A stretch of 64,000 nucleotides of DNA from an uncultured Varibaculum sp. GTDB taxonomy: Bacteria > Actinomycetota > Actinomycetes > Actinomycetales > Actinomycetaceae. The position numbers were made by a program, and so were the translations under genes. This document shows, in pieces, positions 272 through 54,171 of the stretch. Under the pieces are notes generated by a model, which ran no database searches, had not been told where the DNA came from, and saw nothing but the letters and a program-made list of their open reading frames with translations. The DNA lies in the NCBI GenBank assembly GCA_947255165.1, contig CAMYFZ010000001.1, forward strand, positions 1-64,000, written 5' to 3'. Position 1 is the first letter of the stretch. Every line of letters begins with the position of its first letter.

Positions 272-326
272 CCAGTACTTCAGTAAAATGTCGGCTGAAG
301 TGAGTGCTTGAGTCGAACTTTGAAAA

Positions 327-346
327 GTTTGGCAATGTTGCCAAAC
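327..346 (+). promoter_or_regulatory. Perfect 20-base palindrome upstream of membrane protein gene
   Basis: GTTTGGCAATGTTGCCAAAC is a near-perfect inverted repeat with 9-base arms around TG. It lies between the RpiB-type fragment and the membrane protein, 26 bases before the proposed start codon. It could be an operator for a sugar regulator (LacI-type sites are of this size) or an intercistronic RNA hairpin. No regulator gene is present in the window to support either reading. Confidence 0.5.
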
Positions 347-372
347 GCTATCTAAATAAAGGTATTAAAAAT

Positions 373-1407
373 ATGATCGAAACAATACAAATGGCGGCAA
401 GTGCCAGCGACTTTGTAAACTCGTTTGGTCCCTCAGCCGGATTTTCACTGTTTTGGGCAATCTGCGCCATTGGCGGTGGAATCATCGGGGCTGCGATCGG
501 CGGTAACTGGGCCTTCGTAATGACCGGTTTCTCGGTATTTCTGGGCTTCGCGGTAGCTGCTAGCACGGGAAGCGATATTGTCCTTAACTACATGGCATTC
601 GGGCCGGTATTTGGTCCCCACATTTGCTTCGCAGGTGGAGCTGCAGCCCATGCTTACGCCGGTAAACTTGGCCTAAACGGAGAGAAAAAGGGCAAGGATA
701 TTGATACCTCGCCTGCCGGGTTTGGTAATCCCACCATGCTCTGGATCGGTGCAATCTTCGGCTTGGGCGGCTACCTATTAGAACGCTGCATCCGCTTGAT
801 TCCTTGGTTTGGTCACAACACCGACACCGTGGCATTAACGGTTCTGATATCTGGTTTGCTAGTCCGCCTGATCTTCGGTAAGACCGGAATCTTTAACTGG
901 ACTTCGCAGCTCACCGATAAGGAATGCTGGCTGCGCTGGCAGGAAAAGCCCTCCCAGTGGTTAACCATCGGGATAGGAGCTTCGATATTTGCCGGGGGAC
1001 TAGCTTTAAGCGTTGCCCACCTACTCCCCTACCTGAGCCCAGACATCGAGAAAGCGTTGCTTGGAAATGCTCAGGCTCTGCCCTTCGGTATTTCTGCCAT
1101 CACCATTTTGATGCTGATTCTCGGCTTCAAGATTCCCGTCACCCACCACATTACGATTACCGCTGGTCTAGCGGCCATGGTTTGGTTCCCAATTTTAGGA
1201 AACAGCCTGTATTTGGCGCTGCTAGCCTCCGTAGTATTTGGAGTGATGGCTGCGGGCTTGGCCGAATTTGCGCAAAGGCTGATGTACGCCCGGGGCGATA
1301 CTCATATTGACCCCCCGGCAGCTGCTATTTGGCTCTCCCACACCGTGGTTAAGGGTTCGGCTCTGCTGGTAGTTGCCGCTGGCCTGGTACCGGCACCGCA
1401 GGTCTAA
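373..1407 (+). CDS. Multi-pass membrane protein, candidate sugar/polyol permease
   Basis: I do not recognise this family. The 344-residue product is strongly hydrophobic, with roughly eight to nine membrane segments, for example around residues 24-45, 50-75, 125-145, 155-170, 200-225, 245-265, 272-305 and 325-340. One soluble loop near residues 100-115 is lysine- and glycine-rich. I chose the ATG at 373 because AAAGG lies about 10 bases upstream; an upstream in-frame TTG-type start near 304 has no ribosome site. It sits between an RpiB-type isomerase and an AraL-like phosphatase in a catabolic operon with no other transporter visible, so sugar or sugar-alcohol uptake is a reasonable inference. 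It is not a recognisable MFS, ABC or PTS component. Confidence 0.75.
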   Translation: MIETIQMAASASDFVNSFGPSAGFSLFWAICAIGGGIIGAAIGGNWAFVMTGFSVFLGFAVAASTGSDIVLNYMAFGPVFGPHICFAGGAAAHAYAGKLGLNGEKKGKDIDTSPAGFGNPTMLWIGAIFGLGGYLLERCIRLIPWFGHNTDTVALTVLISGLLVRLIFGKTGIFNWTSQLTDKECWLRWQEKPSQWLTIGIGASIFAGGLALSVAHLLPYLSPDIEKALLGNAQALPFGISAITILMLILGFKIPVTHHITITAGLAAMVWFPILGNSLYLALLASVVFGVMAAGLAEFAQRLMYARGDTHIDPPAAAIWLSHTVVKGSALLVVAAGLVPAPQV

Positions 1408-1421
1408 AATATAACTAAATG

Positions 1422-1455
1422 TTGGGGTGGAAAGCAGTTTTGCTTTCCACCCCAA
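1422..1455 (+). terminator. Intercistronic hairpin, 15-bp perfect stem
   Basis: Arms at 1422-1436 and 1441-1455 are exactly complementary around a four-base loop (GTTT), starting 14 bases after the membrane protein stop codon. No U-tract follows. It could be an actinobacterial U-less terminator giving partial read-through, or a stabilising or processing hairpin that sets different mRNA levels for the membrane protein and the enzymes downstream. A GTG inside the left arm (1427) extends the next reading frame but is not a credible start. Confidence 0.7.
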
Positions 1456-1483
1456 CCCCAATAAATACTGGAGAGGAAAACAA

Positions 1484-2344
1484 TTGGAAACAGGAAATGC
1501 TTTAAGGTTCCCCACTGAGTTCTATGATGCCTATATTTTCGATATGGATGGCACCATCTATCTGGGAGACCACCTATTACCCGGGGCTAAAAGACTAATC
1601 GAGGAACTGCGGCGTCGCGAGATTCCGGTACGTTTCCTGTCGAATAATCCCACCAAAGACCCCCATCTTTATGTAGACAAACTAGAGGGATTGGATATTC
1701 CCACTCCCCTAGAAGACATTGCCAACACCGTAGTCACTATGACCCGTTGGCTCAAAGATCACCACGCTGATAAGACCGTTTTTCCGATTGCGGAACAACC
1801 TTTGATTGATGCCCTGCATGACGCGGGCATCAAGATCAGTGATGATCCCAAAGAAATCGATATCGTCATCGCTTCGTATGACCGTACTTTTGACTATCGC
1901 AAGCTGCAGATAGCTTTCGATGCCATCTGGTTCCATAACCGCGCTATTCTGGTCGCTACTAACCCGGATCGTTACTGCCCCTTCCCCGGAGGGCGCGGAG
2001 AGCCAGACTGTGCTGCGATTATTGCCGCCATTGAAGCCTGCACTCAGACCAAGTGCCAGGTTATTACCGGCAAACCGGAGCCCGTAATGCTCGAGGTAGC
2101 GATTGAAGGTCTAGACGTTAACCCCCGGCACTGCATGATGGTGGGCGACCGGCTTTACACTGATATCGAAATGGCCAAGAAAACTGGAATGTTTTCCGCG
2201 ATGCCCCTTACCGGAGACTCCACTGCCAAAGAGGCTTTGGCGCTGCCCAAGGAGCATCAACCCGACTTTATACTCGATCGTGTTGACCGTCTGATTCCCG
2301 CTGCAGTATGGGAAGAAAACGGTTGGACCGCAGAAGATGACTAA
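1484..2344 (+). CDS. AraL-like HAD-IIA sugar phosphatase
   Basis: The 286-residue protein has the HAD phosphatase motifs in order: the DMDGT nucleophile loop near residues 18-22, SNN near 52-54, the GKPEP lysine segment near 195-200, and GDRLYTD near 222-228. The layout is that of the NagD/AraL (HAD-IIA, C2 cap) subfamily, which dephosphorylates sugar phosphates and related metabolites. In Bacillus subtilis AraL lies in the arabinose operon and is thought to limit sugar-phosphate toxicity; a similar job is inferred here. I take the TTG at 1484 as start because GGAGAGG lies 7 bases upstream, whereas the longer GTG frame begins inside a hairpin. Close to the next gene and co-directional. Confidence 0.85.
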   Translation: METGNALRFPTEFYDAYIFDMDGTIYLGDHLLPGAKRLIEELRRREIPVRFLSNNPTKDPHLYVDKLEGLDIPTPLEDIANTVVTMTRWLKDHHADKTVFPIAEQPLIDALHDAGIKISDDPKEIDIVIASYDRTFDYRKLQIAFDAIWFHNRAILVATNPDRYCPFPGGRGEPDCAAIIAAIEACTQTKCQVITGKPEPVMLEVAIEGLDVNPRHCMMVGDRLYTDIEMAKKTGMFSAMPLTGDSTAKEALALPKEHQPDFILDRVDRLIPAAVWEENGWTAEDD

Positions 2345-2450
2345 AACTAAATAAAACTGCTGAGCACCCTCAAAAATATTGAAATGCGCTCACTGCTGCG
2401 CGCAAAAGTCGCCGACAACGATGCCGGCGCAAAATTCAAGGAGAAAACAA

Positions 2451-4022
2451 ATGGTAGCACCCGGTTATGAAGGTCCTTACCTATTGGGAATCGACTACGG
2501 CACCGAATCTTGCCGGGCCGCAATTTTCGATCTGCGGGGCACTCCGATTGGCTTTGCCGCCACCGGATACCCCACCCATCACCCTCACCCCGGTTGGGCG
2601 GAACAAGATCCCTCCGACTGGTGGGAAGCGCTGGTAGCTTCGGTGAGAAAAGTCCTAGACCAGACTGGTGTTCCCGCCCGTCATATTGCAGGTATCAGCT
2701 ATGATGCCACCACGATGACCGTGGTTCCCATCAATAAGGAAGGCAAAGAAATTCGCCGGGCCATTATGTGGATGGACGTGCGCGCCACCAAACAGATGGA
2801 ACGGGTCATCGATATGGATCACTGGGCCCGCTTGTACAACGGGGGAAAGACCACTCCCCCAACTGCCGAATGGTATCCCTTCAAAGTTGCCTGGCTAAAA
2901 GAAAATGAGCCCGAAATTTTCAAAGAAGCCTACCGGATCGTAGATGCTCCCGACTGGCTAACCTATCGCCTGACCGGTGAATGGACCATTAACATCAACT
3001 CCGCCTCTATGCGGATGAACTACAACCGCGACTATGGCGGGTGGCCGGTAGATTACTATGAGGCAATCGGGGCCGGCGATGCCTTTGAGAAGATGCCGGA
3101 GCGGGTTGAAGACCTAGGGGTTCCCCTAGGTGGCTTGCTCCCCTCGGTGGCGCAGGAACTCGGTCTTTTGCCGGGTACTCCGGTCGCTCAGGGCTGTGCA
3201 GATGCTTGGGCCGGACAGATCGGCTTGGGTGCGGTAAAACCGGGACGAGTATCTCTTACCACCGGATCCTCCCACGTTATTGCCGGTCAGTCTGATAAGC
3301 CGGTTTATGGTAACGGCTTTATGGGCTCCTACACTGACGGGGTTATCCCCGGACAATACACCTTGGAAGGGTCCCTGGTTTCCTCTGGTTCTGTCCTGAA
3401 ATGGTTTAAGGAAGGTTTTTGTGAGCATCTGGTAAGAAGTGCCGAAGTCGTAGGGGTCAACCCCTACGAGATCCTGGATCGCAAGTGCGAAAACATTGGA
3501 CCTGGCTCTGACGGCTTGATTATTAACGAGTACTTCCAGGGCAACCGCACACCCTACACCGACTCTAAGGCGCGGGGAATTATGTGGGGTCTCTCGCTGT
3601 CGCACACCCCGCTGCACGTTTACCATGCAATTATGGAGGCAGTAGCTTTCGGTACTGCCTATAACTTCAAGAAGATGGAAGATGCCGGATTTAGGTTCGA
3701 TCAGGTAACTGTGTGCGGTGGGGCTACCAAGTCGCCGCTGTGGATGCAGATGCACGCCGATGTCTCCGGAAAGCCCTTAGTAAGGACGGAAGTTGGAGAT
3801 GCAGTAGTGCTCGGTACCTGTATTCTAGCGGCAGTCGGATCTGGCCAATATGCCAATATCCAAGAGGCGGCCGCCAATATGGTGCACGAAACCGAGCGGA
3901 TCGAACCCAACCCGGAAACCCACGAGGAATATCAGTTCTACCTGCAAAAATACATGGAAAGCTATCCAGCGATGCAGGATCTTACCCATCAGCTAGTCGA
4001 CCACGTGGCCGCCGGCGAATAA
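2451..4022 (+). CDS. FGGY-family carbohydrate kinase (ribulokinase-like)
   Basis: The 523-residue product has the FGGY N-terminal ATPase loop (GIDYGTESCRAAIFD, residues about 11-25), a central GCADAW segment holding the likely catalytic Asp, TTGSS, and the C-terminal CGGATKSPLWMQMHAD signature near residue 425. It phosphorylates a sugar or polyol, probably a ketopentose or tetrulose, using ATP. The ATG at 2451 has AAGGAG 7 bases upstream; the frame is open for 72 more bases, but that part is not conserved-looking. It is clearly different from the AraB two genes downstream, so the operon encodes two kinases with probably different substrates. The substrate cannot be assigned from sequence alone. 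Confidence 0.85.
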   Translation: MVAPGYEGPYLLGIDYGTESCRAAIFDLRGTPIGFAATGYPTHHPHPGWAEQDPSDWWEALVASVRKVLDQTGVPARHIAGISYDATTMTVVPINKEGKEIRRAIMWMDVRATKQMERVIDMDHWARLYNGGKTTPPTAEWYPFKVAWLKENEPEIFKEAYRIVDAPDWLTYRLTGEWTININSASMRMNYNRDYGGWPVDYYEAIGAGDAFEKMPERVEDLGVPLGGLLPSVAQELGLLPGTPVAQGCADAWAGQIGLGAVKPGRVSLTTGSSHVIAGQSDKPVYGNGFMGSYTDGVIPGQYTLEGSLVSSGSVLKWFKEGFCEHLVRSAEVVGVNPYEILDRKCENIGPGSDGLIINEYFQGNRTPYTDSKARGIMWGLSLSHTPLHVYHAIMEAVAFGTAYNFKKMEDAGFRFDQVTVCGGATKSPLWMQMHADVSGKPLVRTEVGDAVVLGTCILAAVGSGQYANIQEAAANMVHETERIEPNPETHEEYQFYLQKYMESYPAMQDLTHQLVDHVAAGE

Positions 4023-4049
4023 TCCTAGAAAATAAAGAAAGAAGTATAA

Positions 4050-5411
4050 ATGACAAACGAATTGATCGCGAAAGCACTAGAGACTGCTAGCGACACTAAA
4101 GATATTGAGTTCGGCGTTGGGGTACTAAAGAAAACTGGCCCGCTTTTTGCCCGCCTTTTTCCTGGTAAAAAAGCCCTGGTAGTCGCAGATGAAAACACCT
4201 TCGAGGCAGCTGGAAAGGGAGTAGTAGATTCCCTGAAGGAAGCTGGGGTCCCGATGCACGAGCCCTATATTTTCCCAGGTAAACCTACTTTGTATGCGGG
4301 CTACGAGAACGTAATTAAAGTTCGGGAAGTACTAAAAGATCTCGATGACACGGTGATTTGTTCTATTGCGGCCGGTACCCTAAATGACCTGGCTAAACTA
4401 GCCAGCGGAGAGCTGGGGCGCCCCTATATGAACGTATGTACCGCTGCCTCGGTAGATGGATATGCTGCCTTTGGCGCTTCCATTACCAAGGATGGATTCA
4501 AGATTACCCGTGATTGCCCCGCCCCGGTTGGCTTGGTGGCTGATCTGGATGTAATCGCTGCTGCTCCGCAACGCCTAACCGCGACCGGTTACGGGGACCT
4601 GATTGAAAAGATCCCCGCGGGAGCCGACTGGCTGCTGGCCGATCGCCTCGGGGTCGAAGCCGTAGATGACTACACCTGGTCCCTAGTACAAGGACCGCTA
4701 CGGGGAGCCCTATCCGATCCGGAAGGTGCTGCCAAGGGTGATCGTGATGCCATCGAAGGGCTGGCTGAAGGCAATATTATGTCCGGGCTCGCCATGCAGG
4801 CCCTATCATCTTCTCGCCCCGCCTCGGGTGCCGGTCACCAGTTCTCCCACACCTGGGAAATGGAAGGACACGGCCTCGACTGGGAGCCGCCGCTATCGCA
4901 CGGTTTCAAAGTGGGAGTCGGCACAGTAGCCTCCTTGGCGATTTGGGAAGAGTTCTTGGCAATGGATATTCCTAACCTGGACATTGACGAGATTGTTGCC
5001 AATGCCCCCAGTGAAGCGGATGTCTTGGCGAAGGTCGAAGAGCTAATCATTCCGAATATTCAGGATGAAGCGAAGAAGCACACTCTAAATAAGCATTTAG
5101 AGGGAGAAGCCCTGCGCAAACGCCTGGAACTGCTGAAGGAAAAATGGAGTGATATTAAAGAGGTTTGCTCTAAGCAGCTGATCTCTCCGGAGAAAGCGCA
5201 AGAAGACCTGCGTAAGGCCGGCGCCCCCTACCACCCCGAGATGATCAAGATTGATTGGGATCGTTTCCGCAAGACCCACCGCCAGGCGCAGATGATTCGT
5301 TCGCGCTACACGGTGTTGGACATCCTGATGGATCTTAACGCTCTCGACCAGGTAATCGATCATCTGTTTAGCCCGGAAGGATTCTGGGGTAAGCATCGGC
5401 ACGCTAACTAG
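4050..5411 (+). CDS. araM: AraM-like glycerol-1-phosphate dehydrogenase family protein
   Basis: The 453-residue protein belongs to the iron-dependent dehydrogenase/dehydroquinate-synthase-like fold, AraM/EgsA branch. Visible landmarks are the nucleotide-binding AAGTLNDLAKL segment near residue 110, SVDGYAAFGAS near 132, GYGDLIEKIPAGADW near 175, and the metal ligands in GAGHQFSHTWE and LSHGFKVG near 257-285. B. subtilis AraM reduces dihydroxyacetone phosphate to sn-glycerol-1-phosphate and sits in the arabinose operon next to AraL. The same partners are present here. Whether this copy makes glycerol-1-phosphate or oxidises a sugar-alcohol phosphate is open. A purine-rich ribosome site precedes the ATG. 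Confidence 0.85.
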   Translation: MTNELIAKALETASDTKDIEFGVGVLKKTGPLFARLFPGKKALVVADENTFEAAGKGVVDSLKEAGVPMHEPYIFPGKPTLYAGYENVIKVREVLKDLDDTVICSIAAGTLNDLAKLASGELGRPYMNVCTAASVDGYAAFGASITKDGFKITRDCPAPVGLVADLDVIAAAPQRLTATGYGDLIEKIPAGADWLLADRLGVEAVDDYTWSLVQGPLRGALSDPEGAAKGDRDAIEGLAEGNIMSGLAMQALSSSRPASGAGHQFSHTWEMEGHGLDWEPPLSHGFKVGVGTVASLAIWEEFLAMDIPNLDIDEIVANAPSEADVLAKVEELIIPNIQDEAKKHTLNKHLEGEALRKRLELLKEKWSDIKEVCSKQLISPEKAQEDLRKAGAPYHPEMIKIDWDRFRKTHRQAQMIRSRYTVLDILMDLNALDQVIDHLFSPEGFWGKHRHAN

Positions 5412-5472
5412 GTAAATAGTTAGTTGTTAAATTTCAAGACTCTTCTAAATTCGCAAAGCAATGGAGCCTGCA

Positions 5473-7137
5473 ATGGAAAATAAATATGTAATCGGAATAG
5501 ATTTCGGTACCCTGTCCGGTCGCGCGGTAGTGGTGCGGGTAAGTGATGGGGAAGTATTAGCTTCCGCCGTCACCGAGTACGCCCACGGAGTTATGGATAC
5601 AACTCTAACCGCGGGCGACGGGCAGGCACTGCCTCCTGAATTCGCCCTGGAGGTCCCAGCTGACTATATAAAAGTGCTGGCCACTGCGGTTCCGCGGGCA
5701 GTCAAAGAATCCGGAGTAGATCCTAAGGATGTGGTGGCTATCGGTCTAGACACTACCTCCGCTTCCCTCGTCGTTACCGACAAAGAAGGCACCCCGCTTT
5801 GTGAAAAGGAAGAGTTTAAGAATAACCCGCACGCCTATATCAAGCTGTGGAAACACCACGGCGGCCAAGACCAGGCAGACCGGATCGTAGCACTGGCAAA
5901 AGAGCGCAACGAACCCTGGCTTGGCCGCTATGGCGGGGTGCTTTCTTCTGAACTGGCATTACCGAAAATGCTAGAGCTTTTCGAAAAAGCCCCCGAGGTA
6001 TACCAGGCAGCTGAATCAATTACCGATGTAATGGATTGGCTAACCTGGAAAATGACCGGGGTACACACCCAAACCGCTGGTGCCAGCGGCTACAAGCGGA
6101 TGTACCAGGACGGCAAGTATCCGGATAAAGCATATCTAGAGGCGCTAGCGCCCGGATTCGGCAACGTATTCGAAGAAAAGATGTCGGCACCGATCGCGCC
6201 GCTAGGATCCAAAGTTGGCGAGCTTACGGAAGAAGCTGCTTCCCTGATGGGACTAAATGCAGGGATCACCGTCTGCTCTGGCAATATTGATGCCCATGTG
6301 CATGCTGCTGGTGTGGGTGCTACCGAAAACGGGGTACTAACCGCAATCGCTGGTACCTCTACCTGTTTCGTGGTTTCTGCCCATAACTACGCAGACGTAC
6401 CGGGAACTTTCGGGGTAGTCGATGGCGGTATTGTCGATGGCGAATGGGGCTTTGAGGCTGGTCAAACCGCAGTAGGAGATATTTTCTCTTGGTTTACCAC
6501 CCAGTGTATCCCCCCCAGCTATCGTGAAGAGGCCCAGAAGCGGGGCATCAATATCCATGACCTGCTGACTGAAAAAGCCGCGGAACAAAGAATTGGGGAA
6601 CACGGCCTATTAGCTTTGGATTGGTGGAACGGTAACCGTTCTATTCTGGCCGATGCGCGCCTATCGGGGATGATGCTGGGGATGACCCTCACCACTACCC
6701 CCGAGGAAATGTATCGCGCACTGCTAGAATCCACTATTTTCGGGGCGAAGGTCATTATCGACAACTTCGTTGAACACGGGGTCGATATTAACGAGATCGT
6801 AGTAGCCGGAGGGCTCCTAAAGAATAAGTTGTACATGCAGATGTATGCCGATATCACCGGTCTGCCCATTTCTATCTCCGCCACTGACCAAGCGGGAGCT
6901 TTGGGCTCTGCGGTGTTTGCGGCGGTTGCCGATGGACAATATCCCGACATTTTCGCGGCTTCGGCGGCTATGGGCAAGAAGATTTCTCATGCCTACGAAC
7001 CGATCCCTGAAAATGTGGAAGCCTATCGCGAAATTTACGCAGCCTTCAAAGAAATGCACGACTTCTTCGGTCGGGGCGGAACGGAAGTAATGCGTACCTT
7101 GAAAGCGATTCGAGCGCGAGTACACCGCGCTAACTAA
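5473..7137 (+). CDS. araB: L-ribulokinase AraB
   Basis: The 554-residue FGGY kinase has the AraB hallmarks: GIDFGTLSGRAVVV at the N-terminus, DTTSAS near residue 97, HAYIKLWKHH near 120, catalytic GNIDAHVHAAG near 271, and AGGLLKNKLYMQMYADITG near 447. Ribulokinase phosphorylates L-ribulose (and often other ketopentoses) to ribulose-5-phosphate for AraD. Two in-frame ATGs are possible, at 5461 and 5473; the second has GGAG 6 bases upstream and gives the usual short N-terminus, so I prefer it. It is followed 10 bases later by araD. Confidence 0.92.
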   Translation: MENKYVIGIDFGTLSGRAVVVRVSDGEVLASAVTEYAHGVMDTTLTAGDGQALPPEFALEVPADYIKVLATAVPRAVKESGVDPKDVVAIGLDTTSASLVVTDKEGTPLCEKEEFKNNPHAYIKLWKHHGGQDQADRIVALAKERNEPWLGRYGGVLSSELALPKMLELFEKAPEVYQAAESITDVMDWLTWKMTGVHTQTAGASGYKRMYQDGKYPDKAYLEALAPGFGNVFEEKMSAPIAPLGSKVGELTEEAASLMGLNAGITVCSGNIDAHVHAAGVGATENGVLTAIAGTSTCFVVSAHNYADVPGTFGVVDGGIVDGEWGFEAGQTAVGDIFSWFTTQCIPPSYREEAQKRGINIHDLLTEKAAEQRIGEHGLLALDWWNGNRSILADARLSGMMLGMTLTTTPEEMYRALLESTIFGAKVIIDNFVEHGVDINEIVVAGGLLKNKLYMQMYADITGLPISISATDQAGALGSAVFAAVADGQYPDIFAASAAMGKKISHAYEPIPENVEAYREIYAAFKEMHDFFGRGGTEVMRTLKAIRARVHRAN

Positions 7138-7147
7138 AGGAGCATAT

Positions 7148-7858
7148 ATGCCTCATGTAAATGAACTGCCGGCCGAGATCCGCAAGCAGGTTGCAGCTAC
7201 CCGCGAAGTGGTTGCGGCTTTACACGCGGAACTGCCGGCTAACGAGCTGGTAGTTTGGACTGCTGGGAACGTTTCGCAGCGGGTGGAGGGTGCCGATTTA
7301 TTCGTAATCAAACCTTCGGGGGTACGTTACGATGAGCTATCGGCCGATACCATGGTGGTCTGCGATCTAGATGGTAACAAACTGGATGATGATACCTCCG
7401 GGGAGCTACAGCCTTCTTCGGACACTGCGGCTCACGCCTATGTTTATCGACATATGAGTGAAGTGGGAGGGGTAGTGCATACCCACTCCCCCTATGCCAC
7501 GGCATTTGCTGCCGTGCAACAGCCGGTCCCCTGCGTGCTAACCATGATGGGAGACGAGTTCGGTGGCGAAGTACCGATCGGACCATTCGCGATAATCGGG
7601 GATGACTCCATTGGACGCGGAATCGTGGAAACCTTGAAAGATTCCCGCTCCCCCGCAGTGTTAATGGCAAATCATGGGCCGTTTACTATCGGCAAGGACG
7701 CTAAAGCCGCGGTGAAAGCCGCGGTAATGGTAGAGGAAGTAGCCAAGACGGTAGCAATCGCCCGCACCCTCGGGGAGTTGTGCCCGATTGAATCTAGACA
7801 TATAGATTCGCTATACGAGCGTTATCAAAACGTATACGGGCAACCTCCGGTTAAATAA
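7148..7858 (+). CDS. araD: L-ribulose-5-phosphate 4-epimerase AraD
   Basis: The 236-residue class II aldolase/epimerase converts L-ribulose-5-phosphate to D-xylulose-5-phosphate. It shows the substrate loop TAGNVSQR near residue 38, SSDTAAHAYVYRH near 84, the zinc histidines in VHTHSPYAT near 109-111 and in ANHGPFT near 177, and normal family length. AAAGGAG sits just before the ATG and overlaps the end of araB, so the two are translated together. It closes the operon and is followed by a strong hairpin. AraA (arabinose isomerase) is not in the window; it may lie beyond the contig end or be absent. Confidence 0.92.
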   Translation: MPHVNELPAEIRKQVAATREVVAALHAELPANELVVWTAGNVSQRVEGADLFVIKPSGVRYDELSADTMVVCDLDGNKLDDDTSGELQPSSDTAAHAYVYRHMSEVGGVVHTHSPYATAFAAVQQPVPCVLTMMGDEFGGEVPIGPFAIIGDDSIGRGIVETLKDSRSPAVLMANHGPFTIGKDAKAAVKAAVMVEEVAKTVAIARTLGELCPIESRHIDSLYERYQNVYGQPPVK

Positions 7859-7977: not shown

Positions 7978-8340
7978 ATGGCAGAGCGGGCACTACGCGG
8001 AACCAGTATCGGGTCGAAGAGCCTGGAGACAGAGGACGGCGTAGTATTCGCGGAAAGGCGTGAAAGCCTCTATGTTTGCCCGCAAGGACACCGTTTCCAC
8101 ATGACTTTTGCCGCCGAAGTCGCCGCTCCCGCCGAGTGGGAATGCAAATGCGGGGAAATGGGGGAACTGCAATATGAGGAACCCGCGGTAGAAGAGGACG
8201 CTAAACCGGTACGTCCTCAGCGTACCCACTGGGATATGCTCATGGAGCGTCGCAGTGAAGAAGAACTGCAAGTACTGTTGAAAGAACAACTCGAGGTGCT
8301 TCATTCCGGGGCGCTTATGGACGGGGTTCACTACCGCTAG
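7978..8340 (+). CDS. rbpA: RNA polymerase-binding protein RbpA
   Basis: RbpA is an actinobacterial transcription factor that binds RNA polymerase and principal sigma factors and stabilises the open complex. The 120-residue product has the family layout: N-terminal tail (RALRGTSIGS), a core domain with YVCPQGHRF and ECKCG that supplies metal-binding cysteines, a basic linker, and the C-terminal sigma-interaction segment (TRTHWDMLMERRS-like, residues about 80-95). AGAGAGG lies 8 bases before the ATG. It stands alone between two terminators. Its presence is one of the firmest lineage markers here. Confidence 0.96.
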   Translation: MAERALRGTSIGSKSLETEDGVVFAERRESLYVCPQGHRFHMTFAAEVAAPAEWECKCGEMGELQYEEPAVEEDAKPVRPQRTHWDMLMERRSEEELQVLLKEQLEVLHSGALMDGVHYR

Positions 8341-8382
8341 AGTATTACACCCTCTTTAATGGAAACTTTTCTCTACTGAGCA

Positions 8383-8404
8383 GGAGCAGCCCCGGGGCTG
8401 CTCC
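8383..8404 (+). terminator. Terminator after rbpA
   Basis: GGAGCAGCCCC and its exact complement form a 22-base palindrome 42 bases after the rbpA stop, followed by a short pyrimidine run with four Ts (8410-8413). It lies between two convergent genes (rbpA and ppm) and could serve both. Confidence 0.65.
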
Positions 8405-8445
8405 CCTACTTTTAAAGCCACTTTTACCCTCTCAAACCGGAGCTA

Positions 8446-9180
8446 TTATTTAGCAAATAATGCGTTAAACAGGTCGCTTACCCCCCAGCGGGTAACTTTA
8501 GCCAAAGCTTCCAAGATAATGGCACTGGACATTTTGGAGGCTCCGGCAGCCCTTTCTTGAAAAGTGATCGGCACTTCCACAATCTTGCCCCCGGCTCTAA
8601 CTGCCCGGCGGGTCATATCAATCTGGAAGCAATAGCCTCGCGAATCCAGATCCTCTAACCCTAAGCGGCTGAGGAAATCGAGCCGATAAACCCGGAAACC
8701 GGCAGTAGCATCCCCGATTCCCAGAAGCAGCATTGCCGCGATATAGGCATTACCACCCCGAGAAAGCGCCTCTCGAAGTCGGGACCAGCCCTGCAGCCGT
8801 CCTCCCCTGATCCAACGGGAACCAATCACCGCATCCGGCTCACTGGGCCACAGCCGCCGCGCCAATAATTTTTTCAAATCGCGCACCCGGTGAGAACCAT
8901 CCGCGTCCATCTGTACCACCCAGGTGTATCCCGCATCCTGCGCCCAGGAAAACGCCTCCAAATAGGCGGGCCCGAGTCCGGCTTTTTCGGCCCGGTGCAG
9001 CACTTTTACTCCCCGGTCTTGCCGGGCAAGCTCCTCGGCTAGCTGGCCGGTGCCATCTGGAGAATTATCATCTACAATCACCAGATCTGCTTGCGGGACT
9101 TCGGCGCGCAGTTTCGCCACCTGACGGGGCAGGGTTTCCTTTTCGTTATAGGTGGGAATGGCAATTACCGTATCTTTCAT
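8446..9180 (-). CDS. ppm1: Polyprenol monophosphomannose synthase (GT2)
   Basis: This family-2 glycosyltransferase moves mannose from GDP-mannose to polyprenyl phosphate, supplying the lipid-linked donor for lipoglycans and protein mannosylation. The 244-residue protein has VIVDDNSPDGT near residue 34 and QMDADGSH (DXD motif) near 89, and ends without membrane segments. It follows lnt without a spacer; in mycobacteria the two activities are fused in Ppm1 or adjacent, so membrane recruitment through Lnt is a reasonable inference. Confidence 0.9.
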   Translation of the reverse strand: MKDTVIAIPTYNEKETLPRQVAKLRAEVPQADLVIVDDNSPDGTGQLAEELARQDRGVKVLHRAEKAGLGPAYLEAFSWAQDAGYTWVVQMDADGSHRVRDLKKLLARRLWPSEPDAVIGSRWIRGGRLQGWSRLREALSRGGNAYIAAMLLLGIGDATAGFRVYRLDFLSRLGLEDLDSRGYCFQIDMTRRAVRAGGKIVEVPITFQERAAGASKMSSAIILEALAKVTRWGVSDLFNALFAK

Positions 9181-40916: not shown

Positions 40917-42734
40917 CTATTTTTCTTGCCGCTTAGTAAATAAATCTTCGATTTGTTCCCCGTAAACGGCGCGAATCCGATTGCGCTTTATTTTCATAGA
41001 GGGGGTCAGCATCCCGTTTTCAGTCGTCCAATCGGTGGTAAGAATCTTGATTTTGCGGATCGATTCTGCCCGCGACACCGCCCGGTTAGTCCGCTGGACT
41101 GCCCGCTGTAAAGCTTCCAGCACCCGCGGATCCCTAGCTGCCCGGGTGATATCCATCTGTTCCATCCCGTGATTCTTCAGCCAGGTGGGTAACATTTCTT
41201 GATCCAGGGTAACCAGCGCCGCCACAAAGGGTTTATTATCCCCTACTACCATTACCTGTGAGATTAGCGGATGTCCTTTCAAACGTTCCTCTAGGTACTC
41301 GGGAGCTACGTTTTTCCCGCCGGCGGTCACAATAATTTCTTTGGCGCGCCCGGTGATTTTAACGTTGCCATCAGCATCGATTTGCGCAATATCCCCAGTT
41401 TTCAACCAGCCGTCCGCGGTGAAAGCTTCCCGAGTAAGCTCTGGTTCCCCGTAGTAACCCCGCATAATCGAGCCGCCGCGTGCCTGCAGTTCGCCGCCCT
41501 CGCCCAGGCGCACTTGGTTACAAAGCAGGGGTCGGCCTACGTATCCGGTTTTGTTTCCAATCCGCTCAGACATAGTAAGCGGTCCGGTAGTTTCGGTAGC
41601 GCCGTAGCCTTGCAAAACTTCGATGCCGCACCCAATAAAGAAGTGGCCGAGCCGCTCAGCCATGGGCGCTCCCCCAGATACGATTCCCTGCAGGTTTCCG
41701 CCCATAAGTTTTTGGATCTTATTAAGGACTAACTTCCGAGCTAGAGCAATCTTTAGCTTTTGCCCAAACGAAATTTCTTTCCCTAAGTCTTGTGTGCGTG
41801 CCCACTGTTCCGCAGTATGGGCAGCCAAACGGAAAATCCGCAGCTTAATCCCGGAACCTGCGGTAGCATCGGCGGCATTATAGATTTTTTCCAGCACCCG
41901 CGGCACTACTAGCAGAGCATTTGGTTTAAAAGTCTGCATATCCTGGACTATGGTCTTGGGGTTGGGTAAAAATGCGGCGGTGCCGTGACCTACCAGTTGC
42001 TGATAACCCAGGAAACGAGCCATTACGTGGGCTACCGGCAGGAAGTAAATTACCCGGGCACCGGGGTCGAAAACCCATTCGTTCCAACTGCCCCGCTCGA
42101 TGACAGCATTTAGGGGGCGCAGGAAGTTTCCGTGGGTAATTTCTACCCCTTTGGGGCGTCCGGTGGTCCCGGAAGTAAAAACAATGGTGCAAAGGTCATC
42201 AAGTTTTATCTGTTCTAAGCGTTCATCTAGTTCCGAGGGGGAAATAGTGCGTCCGTGTTCTAAAAGACGGGTTAAGCCCGAATCGTCTAAAGAAAACACT
42301 GCCGAGATTTGTCCGGCGAGTTCAGGTTCCTTATCCAGCTGACGAATCATATTCGCCTGCGCCGTAGAATCGGTAATTACTGCCTTTATCTGGGCTTTTT
42401 GGGCAATCCACTTTACCTGTTCATAGGAGTCGGTTTCATAGATGGGCACGGTAACTAGCCCAGCTGCTTGCGCTCCCAGATCCATAATCATCCATTCGTA
42501 GGAGGTGGATCCCAGAATGGAGACTGCATCTCCGGGTTTTAACCCCAGACCGATCCACCCTAAACCGGCTGCCCGGATCGCGTCTCCCAAGGAAGCTGCA
42601 GAGATTTTTTCCCACGCGGCTCCCAACGCGGAGGGACGCTCAACTGCGATTTCTCGCGCCCGATTACTGGCGCGATCCAGTACCGCTGCGGCCACCGAAG
42701 TGAATTGCATTAGATCGATAGCGGGAGCTCCCAT
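40917..42734 (-). CDS. Long-chain acyl-CoA synthetase (FadD15-like) 1
   Basis: The 605-residue adenylate-forming enzyme activates fatty acids as CoA thioesters. It has the AMP-binding signature IVFTSGTTGRPKGVEITHGN near residue 190, GYGATETTG near 373, the TGD motif in WLKTGDIAQID near 445 and the catalytic Lys region in NGMLTPSMKIKR near 578. GGAG lies 8 bases before the ATG. It closely resembles the second copy at 52255-54171. The N-terminal ~45 residues before SLGDAI are not conserved between copies. Confidence 0.9.
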   Translation of the reverse strand: MGAPAIDLMQFTSVAAAVLDRASNRAREIAVERPSALGAAWEKISAASLGDAIRAAGLGWIGLGLKPGDAVSILGSTSYEWMIMDLGAQAAGLVTVPIYETDSYEQVKWIAQKAQIKAVITDSTAQANMIRQLDKEPELAGQISAVFSLDDSGLTRLLEHGRTISPSELDERLEQIKLDDLCTIVFTSGTTGRPKGVEITHGNFLRPLNAVIERGSWNEWVFDPGARVIYFLPVAHVMARFLGYQQLVGHGTAAFLPNPKTIVQDMQTFKPNALLVVPRVLEKIYNAADATAGSGIKLRIFRLAAHTAEQWARTQDLGKEISFGQKLKIALARKLVLNKIQKLMGGNLQGIVSGGAPMAERLGHFFIGCGIEVLQGYGATETTGPLTMSERIGNKTGYVGRPLLCNQVRLGEGGELQARGGSIMRGYYGEPELTREAFTADGWLKTGDIAQIDADGNVKITGRAKEIIVTAGGKNVAPEYLEERLKGHPLISQVMVVGDNKPFVAALVTLDQEMLPTWLKNHGMEQMDITRAARDPRVLEALQRAVQRTNRAVSRAESIRKIKILTTDWTTENGMLTPSMKIKRNRIRAVYGEQIEDLFTKRQEK

Positions 42735-45731: not shown

Positions 45732-47078
45732 TTACGCTTCCTTTGACTTGGTGACGTCCCAGCGGGGATCAGATTTGATCCCCTTTTCTACCAACTTAGG
45801 GTCGGCAGACAGTGGGGTACGCGGCTTCGGATAGCGTTTGTCTTGTTTCCACCAAGGCATCCAACCCACATATCCGTCTACCGGCGGGGTTGCAGATTTG
45901 GGTTCGAAGCCTAGCTGCGTGGGAGTCTCGAGGATAAAGTCGGTCAAGAAATATTTGTCTTTATCATCCGCGTAGAGCTTTACTACTTTTCTAAAGGCTC
46001 CCAGTTCGAAGAAGAGGCAGTTTGTCCAGGGATTGCGGTGATGTTTGGTTATCTTGTATAGCCAATAGATAAACAGCGCCACATTAGAAATCAGTGCCAG
46101 CCAAGCACAAACGATATTCGCCACCGGGTTCATCGTGGCGTAGTTGGTCATTATGGAGGGCCTCACTAGCAACTCCGGCAAAATGTTGTTAGCTGCTATC
46201 CAGAACATCAAGGTGAAACAGCGGAACCAGATCCATTGCCCTTTTGCCCAAGTAAAAGCGGGAACCGTACACGCGAGCAGCAATGCCAAGGTGCAGTACC
46301 AGGTGTAGTCCGCGAGTGAGTTATATAGGAAGGAATGGTTCCACAGGTCATAGGCAATAATCCACGGCCAGGCCATATCTGCCCAAATCAGCCCTTGTAC
46401 TTTCCCTTTCTTTGCCGAAGAAATAAAGATTTTTCCCAGGCCGGTGATGGTAATGATGTTTAGTAGCCCGGCGGCGGCCGACAGCAGATTCCAGTATCCG
46501 CCGATAGTGCGGAACCCGGTGGCCGGGTCGATCCCTACTCCACTGGCTTTAAAGGCATCGGCAGCCGCTTGATACCAGGCGACAGAGCCACTGGCAGCGG
46601 TGATTCCGCGGGTTTCGGGTAGCCCCTCGATCATCGAGATCGAGCGGGAGGAATCAATATCCATCAGGCATTGAAAGTTCGTGGCGCAGGCGCGGTAAGT
46701 GTCGGCTTCAAAGTAGATGGTCAGGTCACGAATATTGGCTTCCATAATGTTTACTGCCAGGCCGATCCAGAGGGCAACGCCAAACCAGATAGCGTAGCGA
46801 CGGGCCTTTAAGGGATTGCGTTTACCCCAATGCAGCAGGAAAGCAGTCATGGTGGCGGTGGCCAGCATGATGATGAATTTTCCGAAAGGGAACCACCCCA
46901 CCATAGGAACCCCGTGAATGATGACATAGGGAATCAGTAAAACTCCACCGACTGTCCAGACGGCGAAGGCGGTCCAAGTCCAGCGGCGATGCATTTCTGC
47001 CACTAACATTTGGAGAGCAAAAATTAGAATCCAGAAAAGGTAGACCCAGATTGGGCCGACTTCCCATAAAAATCCCAT
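45732..47078 (-). CDS. Multi-pass membrane protein, DUF5692-like, paralogue 1
   Basis: The 448-residue protein has about nine membrane helices between residues 10 and 345 and a long soluble C-terminal tail (about 355-448) rich in Pro, Lys and Asp. A stretch near residue 230-300 ([43 protein letters not shown]) is shared almost position by position with the protein at 48333. I assign it tentatively to DUF5692, a family of unknown function. It also has an extra loop (about residues 125-200) with a CATNFQCL pair of cysteines that the paralogue lacks. AAGGAA precedes the ATG. It is divergent from the SRPBCC-like gene. Confidence 0.75.
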
Positions 47079-47199
47079 GACTGTTCCTTTTAAACCGAGC
47101 GACGCTGCCCGGTCGTTTTGAGCTTACCTATTGTCTTTTAAATTGAGTACTATCTGCGAATATGACGCTATTTTTCTCTTTAAAAGAGGCCGCTATTCT

Positions 47200-47217
47200 T
47201 AATACAGTAGTGTATTA
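47200..47217. promoter_or_regulatory. 18-base palindrome in divergent promoter region
   Basis: TAATACAGTAGTGTATTA has 7-base arms around GTAG. It lies 66 bases before the SRPBCC-like start codon in the 204-base region between two divergent genes and overlaps a possible -10 element (TATTAT, 47213-47218). Size and symmetry suit a TetR- or GntR-type operator. No regulator gene is adjacent. Confidence 0.5.
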
Positions 47218-47234
47218 TATGTTAACGCAAGGAC

Positions 47235-47255
47235 GACAACGATGTTGTCTTTTTT
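47235..47255 (+). promoter_or_regulatory. Leader palindrome followed by T-run (attenuator-like)
   Basis: GACAAC-GAT-GTTGTC at 47235-47249 is a perfect 6-base inverted repeat followed directly by six Ts (47250-47255), 28 bases before the SRPBCC-like start. The stem is short, so as a terminator it would be weak; it could instead be a second operator. Confidence 0.4.
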
Positions 47256-47282
47256 AAAAGAAATAACCTACGGAGAAGATCA

Positions 47283-48329
47283 ATGTCTGCTAACCACAGT
47301 CGAATTGGAAAAATATTGCGCCTCGGCGCTTTCGGGGGCAGCGTCGCCCTCGGCGGAATGCTGGGCTTCAGTCAGTTTTCGGGGAAAGCCACCGCAGAGG
47401 AAAACGAATGGCACTACCCTTCCGATGATTTAATCGACCGTTGCTATTCCAATGGTCGCTCCTCAACCTACGCCATTAATATTGACGCTCCCGCCTATGC
47501 GGTTTATCGGCACCTAAAACAGCTAGGTTGCGACAAGGCAGGCTCTTATTCTTCCGAATTCTTGGAACGCACTTTTGCGCGTCTACCTTTCTTCAACTCT
47601 TACGAAATTCAAGAACAGTGGCAAGGTGAAGACGCTCTGAAACCCGGAGATATCGCCGCCTTTGACTTCACCGGGATGTCTATGGAATGGGCGGATGTAG
47701 TACCGGGGAAGTATCTTTCCCAATGGGTTGATACCAAGCATCCACCGCGGGCTCCCGGATCCTTCGCATTCCGCTACCCAGGGATGAAGCATTACGCGGC
47801 CGCCTGGTGTTTTTACCTGATTCCCCTCAAAGGAGAACGCTGTCGATTAATCAACCATTGGCGTATCGGTTTTGAACCCGATACCAAGTTTGCGGCTGCC
47901 ATCAACTGGATAAACATTGAACTGATCGGCGGATGCATGGCGCATCTGCAAAACCTCTATGTTAAGCGGGTAGCGGAGTTCCGGAAGAAACCGCAATGGC
48001 AAGGACGGATTAAGCGGGCAGTACTGGGAGGCAAGCTCTTCGGATATGACACTCCCGCGGGACGCTGGGACGGCACCGAACTCTACGAAGAGACCCACAA
48101 CCAGTGGCTGCGCTATGGCCGCCAAGACCCTGCGGTAAACGAGGTACGCCCTCCGGTAACCGATAATCCCACTTGGCCTCCTACCTCCTCCGATTCCCCG
48201 TGGGCGCAGGATATTGATAGTGAATATTTCACTGATTGGGAAGAACCGGAGTTTTCCTGGGAGGAGCAAATCCGGCAAAAGAAAGAGAAAACCTATCTTC
48301 CTGGCTGGGGCAAAAAGGCGGCGAAATAA
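47283..48329 (+). CDS. Exported SRPBCC/START-like protein, unknown function
   Basis: The 348-residue protein starts with a basic stretch and a weak hydrophobic segment (LGAFGGSVALGGMLGF, residues about 14-29) ending near GKATAEE, consistent with export or a membrane anchor. Residues about 60-215 resemble SRPBCC lipid-binding folds: INIDAPAYAVYRHLKQLGCDKAGSYSSEFLERTF, then LKPGDIAAF, AAAWCFYLIPL and CRLINHWRIGF. The tail (about 265-348) is acidic, Trp- and Pro-rich. GGAG precedes the ATG. Its stop is 3 bases before the next gene, so the two are co-translated. A hydrophobic ligand is inferred; no function is known to me. Confidence 0.72.
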   Translation: MSANHSRIGKILRLGAFGGSVALGGMLGFSQFSGKATAEENEWHYPSDDLIDRCYSNGRSSTYAINIDAPAYAVYRHLKQLGCDKAGSYSSEFLERTFARLPFFNSYEIQEQWQGEDALKPGDIAAFDFTGMSMEWADVVPGKYLSQWVDTKHPPRAPGSFAFRYPGMKHYAAAWCFYLIPLKGERCRLINHWRIGFEPDTKFAAAINWINIELIGGCMAHLQNLYVKRVAEFRKKPQWQGRIKRAVLGGKLFGYDTPAGRWDGTELYEETHNQWLRYGRQDPAVNEVRPPVTDNPTWPPTSSDSPWAQDIDSEYFTDWEEPEFSWEEQIRQKKEKTYLPGWGKKAAK

Positions 48330-48332
48330 CTG

Positions 48333-49295
48333 ATGAAACCAGACTATCCCACCCTATTCTTCTTTGAACTTGGCCAGTGGTACGACTATTTGATGCTAGT
48401 GGTAGTGATCGCGGGGCTCGCGGTACTGGCCTGGCTAGCGATCCGTTACAAATGGGTTGCGATTGCAGTATTCATCGTGATCCCGGTGGCGCTCACTATT
48501 TTTTGGTGGCCCTATTCGCGGGCCGGTACTAACTCTGATGGCTGGTTCCCGATAGTGAAACAATATTCCGCGCTAATCGGGTCGTTGTCGCTGGTGGCGC
48601 TACAATATTTCCCGAAGCTGCGTGATAAGCGCTGGTACCTTTGTATTCCCCCGTTCATTTTGGCGATAAATATTATCGAGGCCGTGATTCGTGACTTCCA
48701 GTGCTACGGCATCCACGGGGTGGATCCCTCGCAAGGGATGGTTACCTGGGGCGGCCCCTGGAACATCATGAATGGTATTGCCGGAATCCTAAACTTCCTG
48801 ATGATTTCGGGCTGGATGGGTATTTACGTATCCAAAGGCAAGAACAAACAGATTATTTGGGGCGATCTGACTATTGGTTGGATTATTGCCTACGATCTGT
48901 GGAATGTAGCCTACGTTTACAACTGTCTAGCTGACCGCGCCTGGTATTCGGGAGTGGCCTTGCTGGCATCTTGTACCATCCCGGCCTTCCTAGCCTTCGG
49001 GAAAGGTGCCTGGATTCAATACCGCGCCTACACCTTGACCTTCTGGTCAGCGATAGTGCTAACCTTCCCGCACTTTATGCAAGATTCCATGTTCGCCCAC
49101 CGCAGCGCTCACAACCCCACTGCGATGTTTTTGCTTTCGGCAGCAGCGCTAGTGGCCAATGTGGTGGTGTTCGGATACCACATCTATAAGGTGCGTTCCA
49201 CCGGACGTAATCCCTTTAAACAGGAAGTTTATTGGGACACTCCCTACAATTTGCAGATTGCTCGCGAAAACGGCGGGAAAATTCAACATAGTTAG
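48333..49295 (+). CDS. Multi-pass membrane protein, DUF5692-like, paralogue 2
   Basis: The 320-residue protein has eight to nine membrane helices (about 17-37, 42-58, 75-95, 110-126, 147-166, 178-198, 206-225, 233-250, 268-288) and a short cytoplasmic tail. The block [49 protein letters not shown] matches the divergent protein at 45732-47078, so the two share ancestry. The N-terminus starts DYPTLFFFELGQWYDY, and the tail of paralogue 1 contains a matching LFFELGAF piece. It may act with the SRPBCC-like protein just upstream. DUF5692 membership is from memory. Confidence 0.75.
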   Translation: MKPDYPTLFFFELGQWYDYLMLVVVIAGLAVLAWLAIRYKWVAIAVFIVIPVALTIFWWPYSRAGTNSDGWFPIVKQYSALIGSLSLVALQYFPKLRDKRWYLCIPPFILAINIIEAVIRDFQCYGIHGVDPSQGMVTWGGPWNIMNGIAGILNFLMISGWMGIYVSKGKNKQIIWGDLTIGWIIAYDLWNVAYVYNCLADRAWYSGVALLASCTIPAFLAFGKGAWIQYRAYTLTFWSAIVLTFPHFMQDSMFAHRSAHNPTAMFLLSAAALVANVVVFGYHIYKVRSTGRNPFKQEVYWDTPYNLQIARENGGKIQHS

Positions 49296-49324: not shown

Positions 49325-49375
49325 GCCTGCCACCCGATTTTGATCTTTGCTGAAGATTTCGGGTGGCGGGCTTTT
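49325..49375 (+). terminator. Terminator after the SRPBCC/membrane protein pair
   Basis: GCCTGCCACCCGA (49325-49337) pairs with TCGGGTGGCGGGC (49359-49371) with one G-T pair, an inner ATCTT/AAGAT extension, and TTTT at 49372-49375. It is a canonical intrinsic terminator 30 bases after the stop. Confidence 0.88.
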
Positions 49376-52254: not shown

Positions 52255-54171
52255 GTGACTAACTGGTTCAATCAGAAGCAAGAAACCAACGTGGAAAAGG
52301 AAATTACCTTCCCACCAGGAACGATTGCGGTGGCCGGGAAAACTCCCGGCACCTTGACAGAGTTTTCCATGCCGGCGACCAAGATACGCGCCGAACACGA
52401 CAATGTTGTCTCCCTGTTTCGCCGTCGCGTGACTCAAGATCCCACGCAGACGGTTATTGAGCAAAAAACGATGCTCGGGGAACAGTGGCGCAAAGTTTCT
52501 GCCGGAGAGTTCTGGGATGAAATCAGTTCGGTAGCGCGGGGACTACTCGGTATCGGCTTAAAGCCCGGCGACCGCTTAGCCTTGCATGGTCCTACTTCCT
52601 ATGAGTGGACACTGATTGATATGGCAGCGCTAGCAATCGGGATCGTTACCGTCCCGATTTATGAAACGGATTCTGCCGCGCAAATCGAATGGATCTTGCA
52701 GGACTCCGATATTCGCTACGCAATCGCTGCTAACCAGTCGGCTCAGGAGCTAATCCAGGCAGTAGCGGCACGAGCAGACCGCAAATGCCGCATATATTCC
52801 CTGGCTGCCGGGGATCTACTGACTATTATTGAGGCGGGACGCCAGATTGCACCGGCAGTGATTGACTCCTATAACGCCCAGATCACCGGCGACACTATTG
52901 CCACCATTATTTACACTTCCGGAACGACCGGCCGCCCTAAAGGCACGATTATCACTCAGCGGAATGCTACGGCCTTGCTACCGAATCTTCTGGACTATTT
53001 GGCGGAGATCGGGTTGCAGAAAACCACCCGTTGCCTGCTATTCCTACCGGTAGCGCACGCCCTTGCCCGCTTAGTTTCCTGGGGAGCGTTAGTCGGGCCG
53101 GGGGTACTAGGCCTAGTGCCGGACACCAAGAACCTGCTGGCAGATTTAGCTGCTTTTAAGCCCTCCTATCTGCTGGCCGTCCCCCGCGTCCTGGAAAAAA
53201 TCTACAATGCCGCCGATGCCTCGGCGGGAACCGGGATAAAACTGCGTTTATTCCGCCTGGCTGCAAAATCTGCGATTGACTATTCCAAAGCCTTAGACAC
53301 TCCTGAAGGGCCATCACGAGCCTTGAAGGTACGTCGGCAAGTCTTTTACCAACTGGTGTTGTCCCGGTTGACCAGCCTTTTGGGAGGAAACGCCAAATAT
53401 ATTATTTCTGGGGGCGGTCCCCTTTCAGTACGTCTTGGTCATTTCTTCCGCGGTATTGGCGTCACGGTTTGCGAAGGCTACGGTTTGACCGAAACTTTAG
53501 GCCCGGCTACCGTGAATGTACCTGACCGCGCCAAGATCGGTTCGGTGGGGCAGCCAGTGCCTGGGATTGCTGTACGCGTCTCTGAGCAGGGTGAAGTACA
53601 GTTCCAGGGCGATCCCATGTCCCCGGGATACCTGAATCTAAAGGAAGAATCCGCTGGGCTTTATACCGAGGACGGTTGGCTACGTACTGAAGATAAAGGC
53701 TGGATTGATTCCGAAGGTTTCGTACATATCACCGGTCGCATGAAAGAAATTATTGTTACTGCCGGTGGCAAGAATGTTTCTCCAGAAATTCTCGAGGACG
53801 GTCTGCGTGGACACCCCCTCATATCAAATGTGGTGGTAGTTGGGGATCGTCGTCCTTTCATTGCCGCGTTGGTAACTCTGGACGCCGAGATGCTTCCGGG
53901 CTGGCTGCGGAACCACAACTTGCCGCCTATGGATATTTCCGGCGCTGCCCGCCACCCCGCGGTCTTAAAGGCTTTGGAGCGAGCAGTGGCGCGCGCTAAT
54001 CAAAAGGTTTCCCGCGCCGAATCTATCCGTAAAATCCGGGTATTAACCATCGATTTCTCTTTAGAAAACGGCACCATGACCCCCTCGCTAAAGGTAAAAC
54101 GTTCGGTAGTGCTAAAGCGTTTTGAAAACGAAATTAACGCTATCTACGGCGGCCCTCTAGAAGAGGAATAA
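52255..54171 (+). CDS. Long-chain acyl-CoA synthetase (FadD15-like) 2
   Basis: The 638-residue protein has the AMP-binding signature IIYTSGTTGRPKGTIITQRN near residue 218, GYGLTETLGPA near 405, WLRTEDKGWID near 478 (TED in place of TGD) and NGTMTPSLKVKR near 610. It shares long stretches with copy 1, for example VLEKIYNAADA and GIKLRLFRLAAKSA. The GTG start follows valS by 20 bases with AAGGTAGG upstream, so it is probably read from the valS promoter. Physiological substrate is unknown. Confidence 0.9.
   Translation: MTNWFNQKQETNVEKEITFPPGTIAVAGKTPGTLTEFSMPATKIRAEHDNVVSLFRRRVTQDPTQTVIEQKTMLGEQWRKVSAGEFWDEISSVARGLLGIGLKPGDRLALHGPTSYEWTLIDMAALAIGIVTVPIYETDSAAQIEWILQDSDIRYAIAANQSAQELIQAVAARADRKCRIYSLAAGDLLTIIEAGRQIAPAVIDSYNAQITGDTIATIIYTSGTTGRPKGTIITQRNATALLPNLLDYLAEIGLQKTTRCLLFLPVAHALARLVSWGALVGPGVLGLVPDTKNLLADLAAFKPSYLLAVPRVLEKIYNAADASAGTGIKLRLFRLAAKSAIDYSKALDTPEGPSRALKVRRQVFYQLVLSRLTSLLGGNAKYIISGGGPLSVRLGHFFRGIGVTVCEGYGLTETLGPATVNVPDRAKIGSVGQPVPGIAVRVSEQGEVQFQGDPMSPGYLNLKEESAGLYTEDGWLRTEDKGWIDSEGFVHITGRMKEIIVTAGGKNVSPEILEDGLRGHPLISNVVVVGDRRPFIAALVTLDAEMLPGWLRNHNLPPMDISGAARHPAVLKALERAVARANQKVSRAESIRKIRVLTIDFSLENGTMTPSLKVKRSVVLKRFENEINAIYGGPLEEE

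Follow-up and report, generated by a model that had tools for sequence, protein, structure and literature searches.

Handling of lipids by an exported binding protein together with a membrane machine is a kind of system that is already known. The membrane protein family DUF5692 (PF18948) has no function assigned to it in the full-text literature that we searched, which lacks most subscription journals, and in the accessible part of PMC10134865 it is named just as a gene neighbour, being listed among the neighbours of 988 IsrA homologs with a co-occurrence of 0.4. Here we describe a locus in a 64,000-nucleotide stretch of DNA (the window) from an uncultured Varibaculum sp. (GenBank assembly GCA_947255165.1, contig CAMYFZ010000001.1, positions 1 to 64,000 of the forward strand), where two DUF5692 genes, here called A and C, stand on either side of a gene, B, for a membrane-anchored protein of the SRPBCC fold. 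The same literature gave nothing that joins an SRPBCC protein with a fatty acid isomerase, and within what was searched we therefore treat the three-gene cassette as undescribed. The locus had been singled out in an original prediction made from the sequence alone, and its three open reading frames lie where that prediction had placed them:

45732-47078, minus strand: gene A, DUF5692 membrane protein of 448 amino acids (open reading frame, Pfam match, A/C alignment, consensus)
47283-48329, plus strand: gene B, membrane-anchored SRPBCC-fold protein of 348 amino acids (open reading frame, invariant columns, structure model, fold comparison)
48333-49295, plus strand: gene C, DUF5692 membrane protein of 320 amino acids (open reading frame, Pfam match, structure model, loop charges)

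Genome comparison gives good support to the view that A, B and C are one three-part membrane system that is near-obligately inherited together, because the three genes stay together while their orders and their neighbours change. A and C were present in 17 out of 17 collected loci (L numbers below; genomes carry G numbers) that hold B, with the order of the window in 14 and other orders in L007, L015 and L017, the second of these being A-C-B+ (plus and minus denote strand). The main survey covered 213 genomes of the family of G001. A profile of B matched 61 of them at E 1.3e-58 or better, one (G471) with a B fragment of 121 positions, and 26 further genomes gave just weaker matches to other SRPBCC-like proteins; a profile of A, at E 1e-120 or better, found exactly the same 61 genomes (Fisher's p 6.6e-55, uncorrected for kinship). 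A matches weaker than about 1e-120, and thereby those of G546 and G547, were left out of this count. PF18948 as such was found in 87 genomes, which include all 61 with strong B. Around the 68 B genes an A gene lies within 8 kilobases (kb) in every case and a C gene in 67, one C being 5.5 kb distant, and A is directly adjacent to B in all 68 pairs. The orders were A-B+C+ (49), A-B+C- (15), C-A-B+ (2), A+B+C+ (1) and A-B+ (1). Outside the three genes the commonest neighbour cluster was near 14 of the 68 loci, some of which are duplicates of the same place, and the next near six. In five of these loci the gene caller detected no B; six-frame open reading frames gave a B match in 67 of the 68. The prediction of a self-contained module in which the SRPBCC gene co-occurs with both DUF5692 genes is thus borne out.

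A, B and C have correlated distance matrices over 55 loci (r 0.70, 0.69 and 0.59, reached by none of 500 permutations) after eight near-duplicate loci had been dropped by hand; as the comparison included no outside control gene, shared descent alone may account for this. Seven genomes hold two B genes, and in the four two-cassette genomes that were compared the copies of each protein differ by 18–44% and have their nearest relative in another genome in 24 of 24 comparisons. Beyond the family surveyed, strong B was found in two of 301 sampled genomes of the family of G007, from which the Corynebacterium locus L015 comes; the plasmid and phage collections gave no relative of B at E 1e-5.

A and C both belong to DUF5692, with scores of 201 bits for A and 400 bits for C where the curated cut-off is 27 bits. 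They are 32% identical to each other (E 7e-40), and the alignment spans both the long core block quoted in the original prediction and a KG.WI block, so that its two related multi-pass proteins on opposite strands are found as described. A carries an extra insert of some 55–60 residues, predicted by homology to C to lie outside, as well as a C-terminal tail, both absent from C. From the charge pattern measured on the homologous C this tail is predicted to be cytoplasmic:

45735-46004, minus strand: C-terminal extension of A, residues 359-448 (consensus of 13 A proteins)

Structure models were made of B and C, each alone. The model of C (predicted local distance difference test score, pLDDT, 90.4) has nine longer helices, and with loop borders set by hand from this model the net charge alternates in sign over the ten loops, three outer values being near zero; on account of this alternation, prediction supports an N-out/C-in topology for C. 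At 40 positions one and the same residue is present at ≥85% in each of three groups, namely 65 A proteins, 64 C proteins and 38 single DUF5692 proteins, the last of which show low conservation at some other columns, perhaps through misalignment. These residues include K76, N113, D121, N144, N154, D178, D188, N191, R231, T234 and N276, and by our reading of the predicted topology they would span the helix bundle from its outer to its inner side. The combined A and C profile gave no match among PDB sequences up to E 1. A candidate assignment of C to PF02322 (E 0.038, below cut-off) was dropped. In three loci outside the cassette a very divergent DUF5692-like protein (26.4–27.9 bits, at a cut-off of 27) adjoins a DUF5692 gene (L091, 5837-6808; L098, 7962-9089; L107, 5854-6768), and the pairing of two members of the family may for this reason not be limited to the cassette. 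We also note an array of four DUF5692 open reading frames in genome G551 (L155, 4811-9084), two of them with equal scores and one short.

The SRPBCC character of B is clear at fold level. B itself matches no Pfam or NCBIfam family up to E 1, and its relative in L143 matches PF10604 at E 0.009, below the cut-off, while the structure model and its fold comparison indicate an SRPBCC/Bet v 1-like helix-grip domain with a long C-terminal helix. The SRPBCC character that had been predicted for this 348-residue protein is therefore seen in the model, despite the lack of a family match. Three parts of B can be told apart:

47295-47381, plus strand: predicted N-terminal membrane helix, residues 5-33, followed by a conserved FSQxxGKATxEE (structure model)
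47445-47993, plus strand: SRPBCC/START helix-grip domain, residues 55-237, the model being weak at 83-107 (model, fold match)
47994-48326, plus strand: Trp/Pro-rich conserved tail (RxPVTDNPxWPP...), residues 238-348 (invariant columns in 66 sequences)

A net positive charge precedes the helix in 57 of the 60 scorable sequences (of 66). Together with the conserved sequence that follows the helix, this charge makes a signal-anchor (N-in) a better description of the N-terminus than a cleaved signal peptide; the export-type N-terminus of the original prediction holds as a predicted membrane helix, and a signal peptide fits less well. The tail is probably a partner-binding segment, and a related tail also occurs in B-like proteins outside the cassette. 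The SRPBCC/Bet v 1-like fold is best known for hydrophobic ligands, and many classes of ligand are bound by it.

Clues to the ligand come from the genomic contexts of relatives. Outside the cassette, B has its closest relatives in G495 (E 9.7e-35) and G553 (E 1.5e-29). The G495 protein (locus L141) shares 32% identity with B over 268 residues and has a tail of the same kind, and about 10 bases after its gene lies a gene for a protein that matches PDB entry 2b9w over nearly its full length (E 2.8e-141). This entry is labelled a putative aminooxidase, and we take it to be the P. acnes polyunsaturated fatty acid isomerase PAI. PAI is described in the accessible parts of PMC3124536 and PMC13365329, and 2B9W serves as a flavin adenine dinucleotide (FAD) control in that of PMC8515934. 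In G553 the B-like and 2b9w-type genes abut again, at 76% identity; both matches end early at the junction, that of the enzyme extending over 167 residues, and from its sequence this pair looks degraded. At E 1e-40 the 2b9w-type enzyme is found in G495 and G553 alone among the 213 genomes, neither of which has strong B. The 394 genomes of the class hold just two distant 2b9w-type matches (29–31%), and tblastn detected no B-like gene in the 4-kb loci around them. A flavin amine oxidoreductase after A in L104, whose length had suggested a fatty acid isomerase, was dropped as a candidate; among the 60 of its 92 PDB matches that were listed, the resemblance is to amine oxidases and similar proteins and extends over no more than the first ~90 residues.

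The contexts of single DUF5692 genes provide a second clue. A TetR-like gene lies within 1 kb of the DUF5692 gene in 28 of 40 loci without B, as counted with the profile of a cluster with a TetR_N representative and with several loci coming from the same genomes. An IsrA-like protein of about 930 amino acids is encoded within 2 kb of a single DUF5692 gene in six of 31 loci, all six of which also have members of the HypA or HypB clusters, and in addition in L247 from Subdoligranulum. In the latter (2593-6825 of OY725877.1, a Subdoligranulum variabile plasmid) a 925-residue IsrA-like protein is encoded upstream of DUF5692 on the same strand, in a region where the gene table of the plasmid collection lists no features. 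The named relative of the IsrA-like reductases is a putative isoprene reductase, and in two Acetobacterium species an oleate hydratase has a TetR-type regulator on one side and a hypothetical protein on the other, both according to the part of PMC10134865 that was accessible. A FAD_binding_2-type reductase lies in the same 15 kb as a single DUF5692 gene in nine loci, and these reductases resemble vinyl phenol reductase and ketosteroid dehydrogenases at scores below the cut-off. Taken with the SRPBCC fold, the 2b9w-type and IsrA-like contexts of relatives point, by guilt by association, to an unsaturated fatty acid or a similar alkene as the ligand. The original prediction had put forward the handling or sensing of a lipid, steroid or polyketide; these ligands are likewise putative, and the system might sense or modify its ligand instead of transporting it.

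We suggest, tentatively and at somewhat short of an even chance, that an A/C heteromer moves the ligand and that B serves as its external carrier. In this model the related proteins A and C, of nine helices each, would form a pair, and B would be tethered to the outer face through its N-terminal helix and could dock on A/C via the conserved tail. The SRPBCC pocket of B would carry a hydrophobic ligand, probably an unsaturated fatty acid or else a lipid with a similar alkene group. B would exchange the ligand with A/C, which would move it across or along the membrane. A wider proposal, which we consider distinctly doubtful, is that the DUF5692 proteins form a new class of membrane carrier or enzyme acting on unsaturated hydrophobic compounds. 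They are often encoded singly and linked to TetR, in some genomes next to alkene or fatty-acid reductases, and in Actinomycetaceae and some corynebacteria they would have become a heteromer with an exported SRPBCC shuttle of its own.

Several observations weigh against the carrier model. The 2b9w-type link is one to the B family rather than to the cassette, because G495 has no DUF5692 match, and the accessible part of PMC13365329 gives the P. acnes isomerase as soluble, whereas B is predicted to be outside. None of the 68 cassette loci, the window included, has an IsrA-like or 2b9w-type gene (E 1e-20), and none has a match to the TetR profile (E 1e-5). The model of C found no clear transporter fold among solved structures with Foldseek and VIA-align, the hits being mainly rows for seven-transmembrane receptors or rhodopsin-like proteins with chance-like scores, which were given no weight as evidence. 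The system also appears dispensable in some strains. Two of the four Varibaculum-type loci (L003 and L004, both at 8001-9047) have in-frame stops in B, at differing codons, one counted stop is present in five of the 68 B matches, and remnants of A or C occur without B in G546 and G547. G546 (A match 1.2e-66) retains 204 residues of A and 107 of C, and in G547 (3.7e-54) the A piece is split over two frames; neither has a B match, and from their sequences both look like decayed cassettes. The remnants lie at 4936-5758 of L248 (A and C) and 5185-5821 of L249 (A), with B missing from both.

Of the alternatives, the one that survives best, though we find it rather unlikely, keeps the same parts and changes the ligand to an isoprenoid, quinone, steroid or aromatic compound. 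The breadth of ligands taken by the SRPBCC fold and the FAD_binding_2 and IsrA-like reductases near single DUF5692 genes would suit it, but the enzyme directly beside a full-length relative of B is the 2b9w-type protein. Less likely still, A and C could form an integral lipid-modifying enzyme, for example an isomerase, hydratase or acyltransferase, to which B presents the substrate; the many conserved charged and aromatic residues agree with this, as does the presence of the B family beside a probable lipid-modifying enzyme, whereas the searches made brought up neither a catalytic motif nor an enzyme fold, an absence of match that excludes nothing. A gene next to a TetR regulator is a common arrangement for exporters, and as single DUF5692 genes are mostly placed in this way, the cassette might act at the surface to extrude or sequester toxic fatty acids from the host or from microbes; with no TetR-profile match in the cassette loci, we regard this as quite improbable. 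That three unrelated genes are adjacent by chance is hardly conceivable given that all 61 strong-B genomes also have A and C and that the A-B adjacency survives changes of order, even though an extra A/C pair without B in G531 and the two B-less remnants speak weakly for it.

Returning to the carrier model and its locus in the window, two further features bear on how the genes could be expressed:

47079-47282, no strand assigned: divergent intergenic region between A and B, 204 base pairs (bp), with an imperfectly conserved inverted repeat at 47235-47249
49326-49370, plus strand: probable terminator of the B-C transcript, a hairpin followed by CUUUUCC (folding; stem also in four Varibaculum-type relatives)

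As B and C are separated by 3 bases on one strand, they are likely to be co-transcribed, which covers part of what had been predicted; co-translation itself does not follow. The terminator called after C corresponds to a stable hairpin (-28.2 kcal/mol, z -5.8 relative to 200 shuffles), which is absent from the list of a simple terminator scan. A divergent control region between A and B, also part of the original prediction, is plausible but not well supported: the promoter scan found no sigma-70-like site in the 204 bp, and the inverted repeat is kept only in part in the four Varibaculum-type relatives. The cassette is flanked in the window by uvrA and a class I tRNA synthetase gene, and on either side of it lies an acyl-CoA ligase-like gene (40917-42734, minus strand; 52255-54171, plus strand), the two proteins being 47% identical to each other. 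Such ligases would suit a fatty-acid ligand, yet they carry little weight, since they are found in just seven of 69 cassette loci, of which six are Varibaculum-type and the seventh is L203. B of the window is 94% identical to proteins from records named Varibaculum, which places the window in that genus or a near relative; a record titled Tissierella sp. Marseille-P2918 (L002, FQLW01000005.1) has the Varibaculum gene order and a B that is likewise 94% identical, and it looks mislabelled or contaminated. Elsewhere in the window, a same-strand run of genes at 304-7858 appears by eye to encode sugar kinases, a phosphatase, a dehydrogenase, an aldolase-type enzyme and a membrane protein.

Through this cassette the DUF5692 family acquires a closely linked partner whose fold can be interpreted, a defined list of genomes with and without it, and a class of ligand open to testing. 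At the cell surface the unit may deal with compounds that resemble fatty acids. If the carrier model is true, it would show how Varibaculum, Arcanobacterium, Mobiluncus and related bacteria exchange unsaturated lipids with the environment, and DUF5692 would be directly testable by lipid binding and gene deletion; the wider proposal, if true, would amount to a lipid-handling machine of a previously undescribed kind.

Compared with binding-protein-dependent lipid import of the Mce and BstABC types, the cassette would share an exported lipid-binding protein that feeds a membrane machine, but no Mce or ATPase gene is among the three and the membrane proteins are of a different family. With the neighbourhoods of IsrA clade 9, TetR and DUF5692, as given in the accessible part of PMC10134865, it has DUF5692 in common and differs in having no IsrA-like gene. 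The pair in L141 contains a relative of B with the same kind of tail, whose partner there is a flavoenzyme and not DUF5692. SRPBCC-like proteins of 226–236 amino acids from related genomes (L145-L148) have, like B, a predicted N-terminal helix, and share a LPGD(D/E)L...I.APP..VWPW..QLG...GFYSF pattern that B has in a form of its own, whereas B is longer by about 110 residues at its C-terminus and is linked with two DUF5692 proteins. Finally, the single TetR-linked DUF5692 proteins are of the same family as A and C and have the 40 residues conserved at ≥85% in common with them, while the cassette has no TetR gene and instead combines two members of the family, one of them with the insert and tail of A, with an SRPBCC partner.

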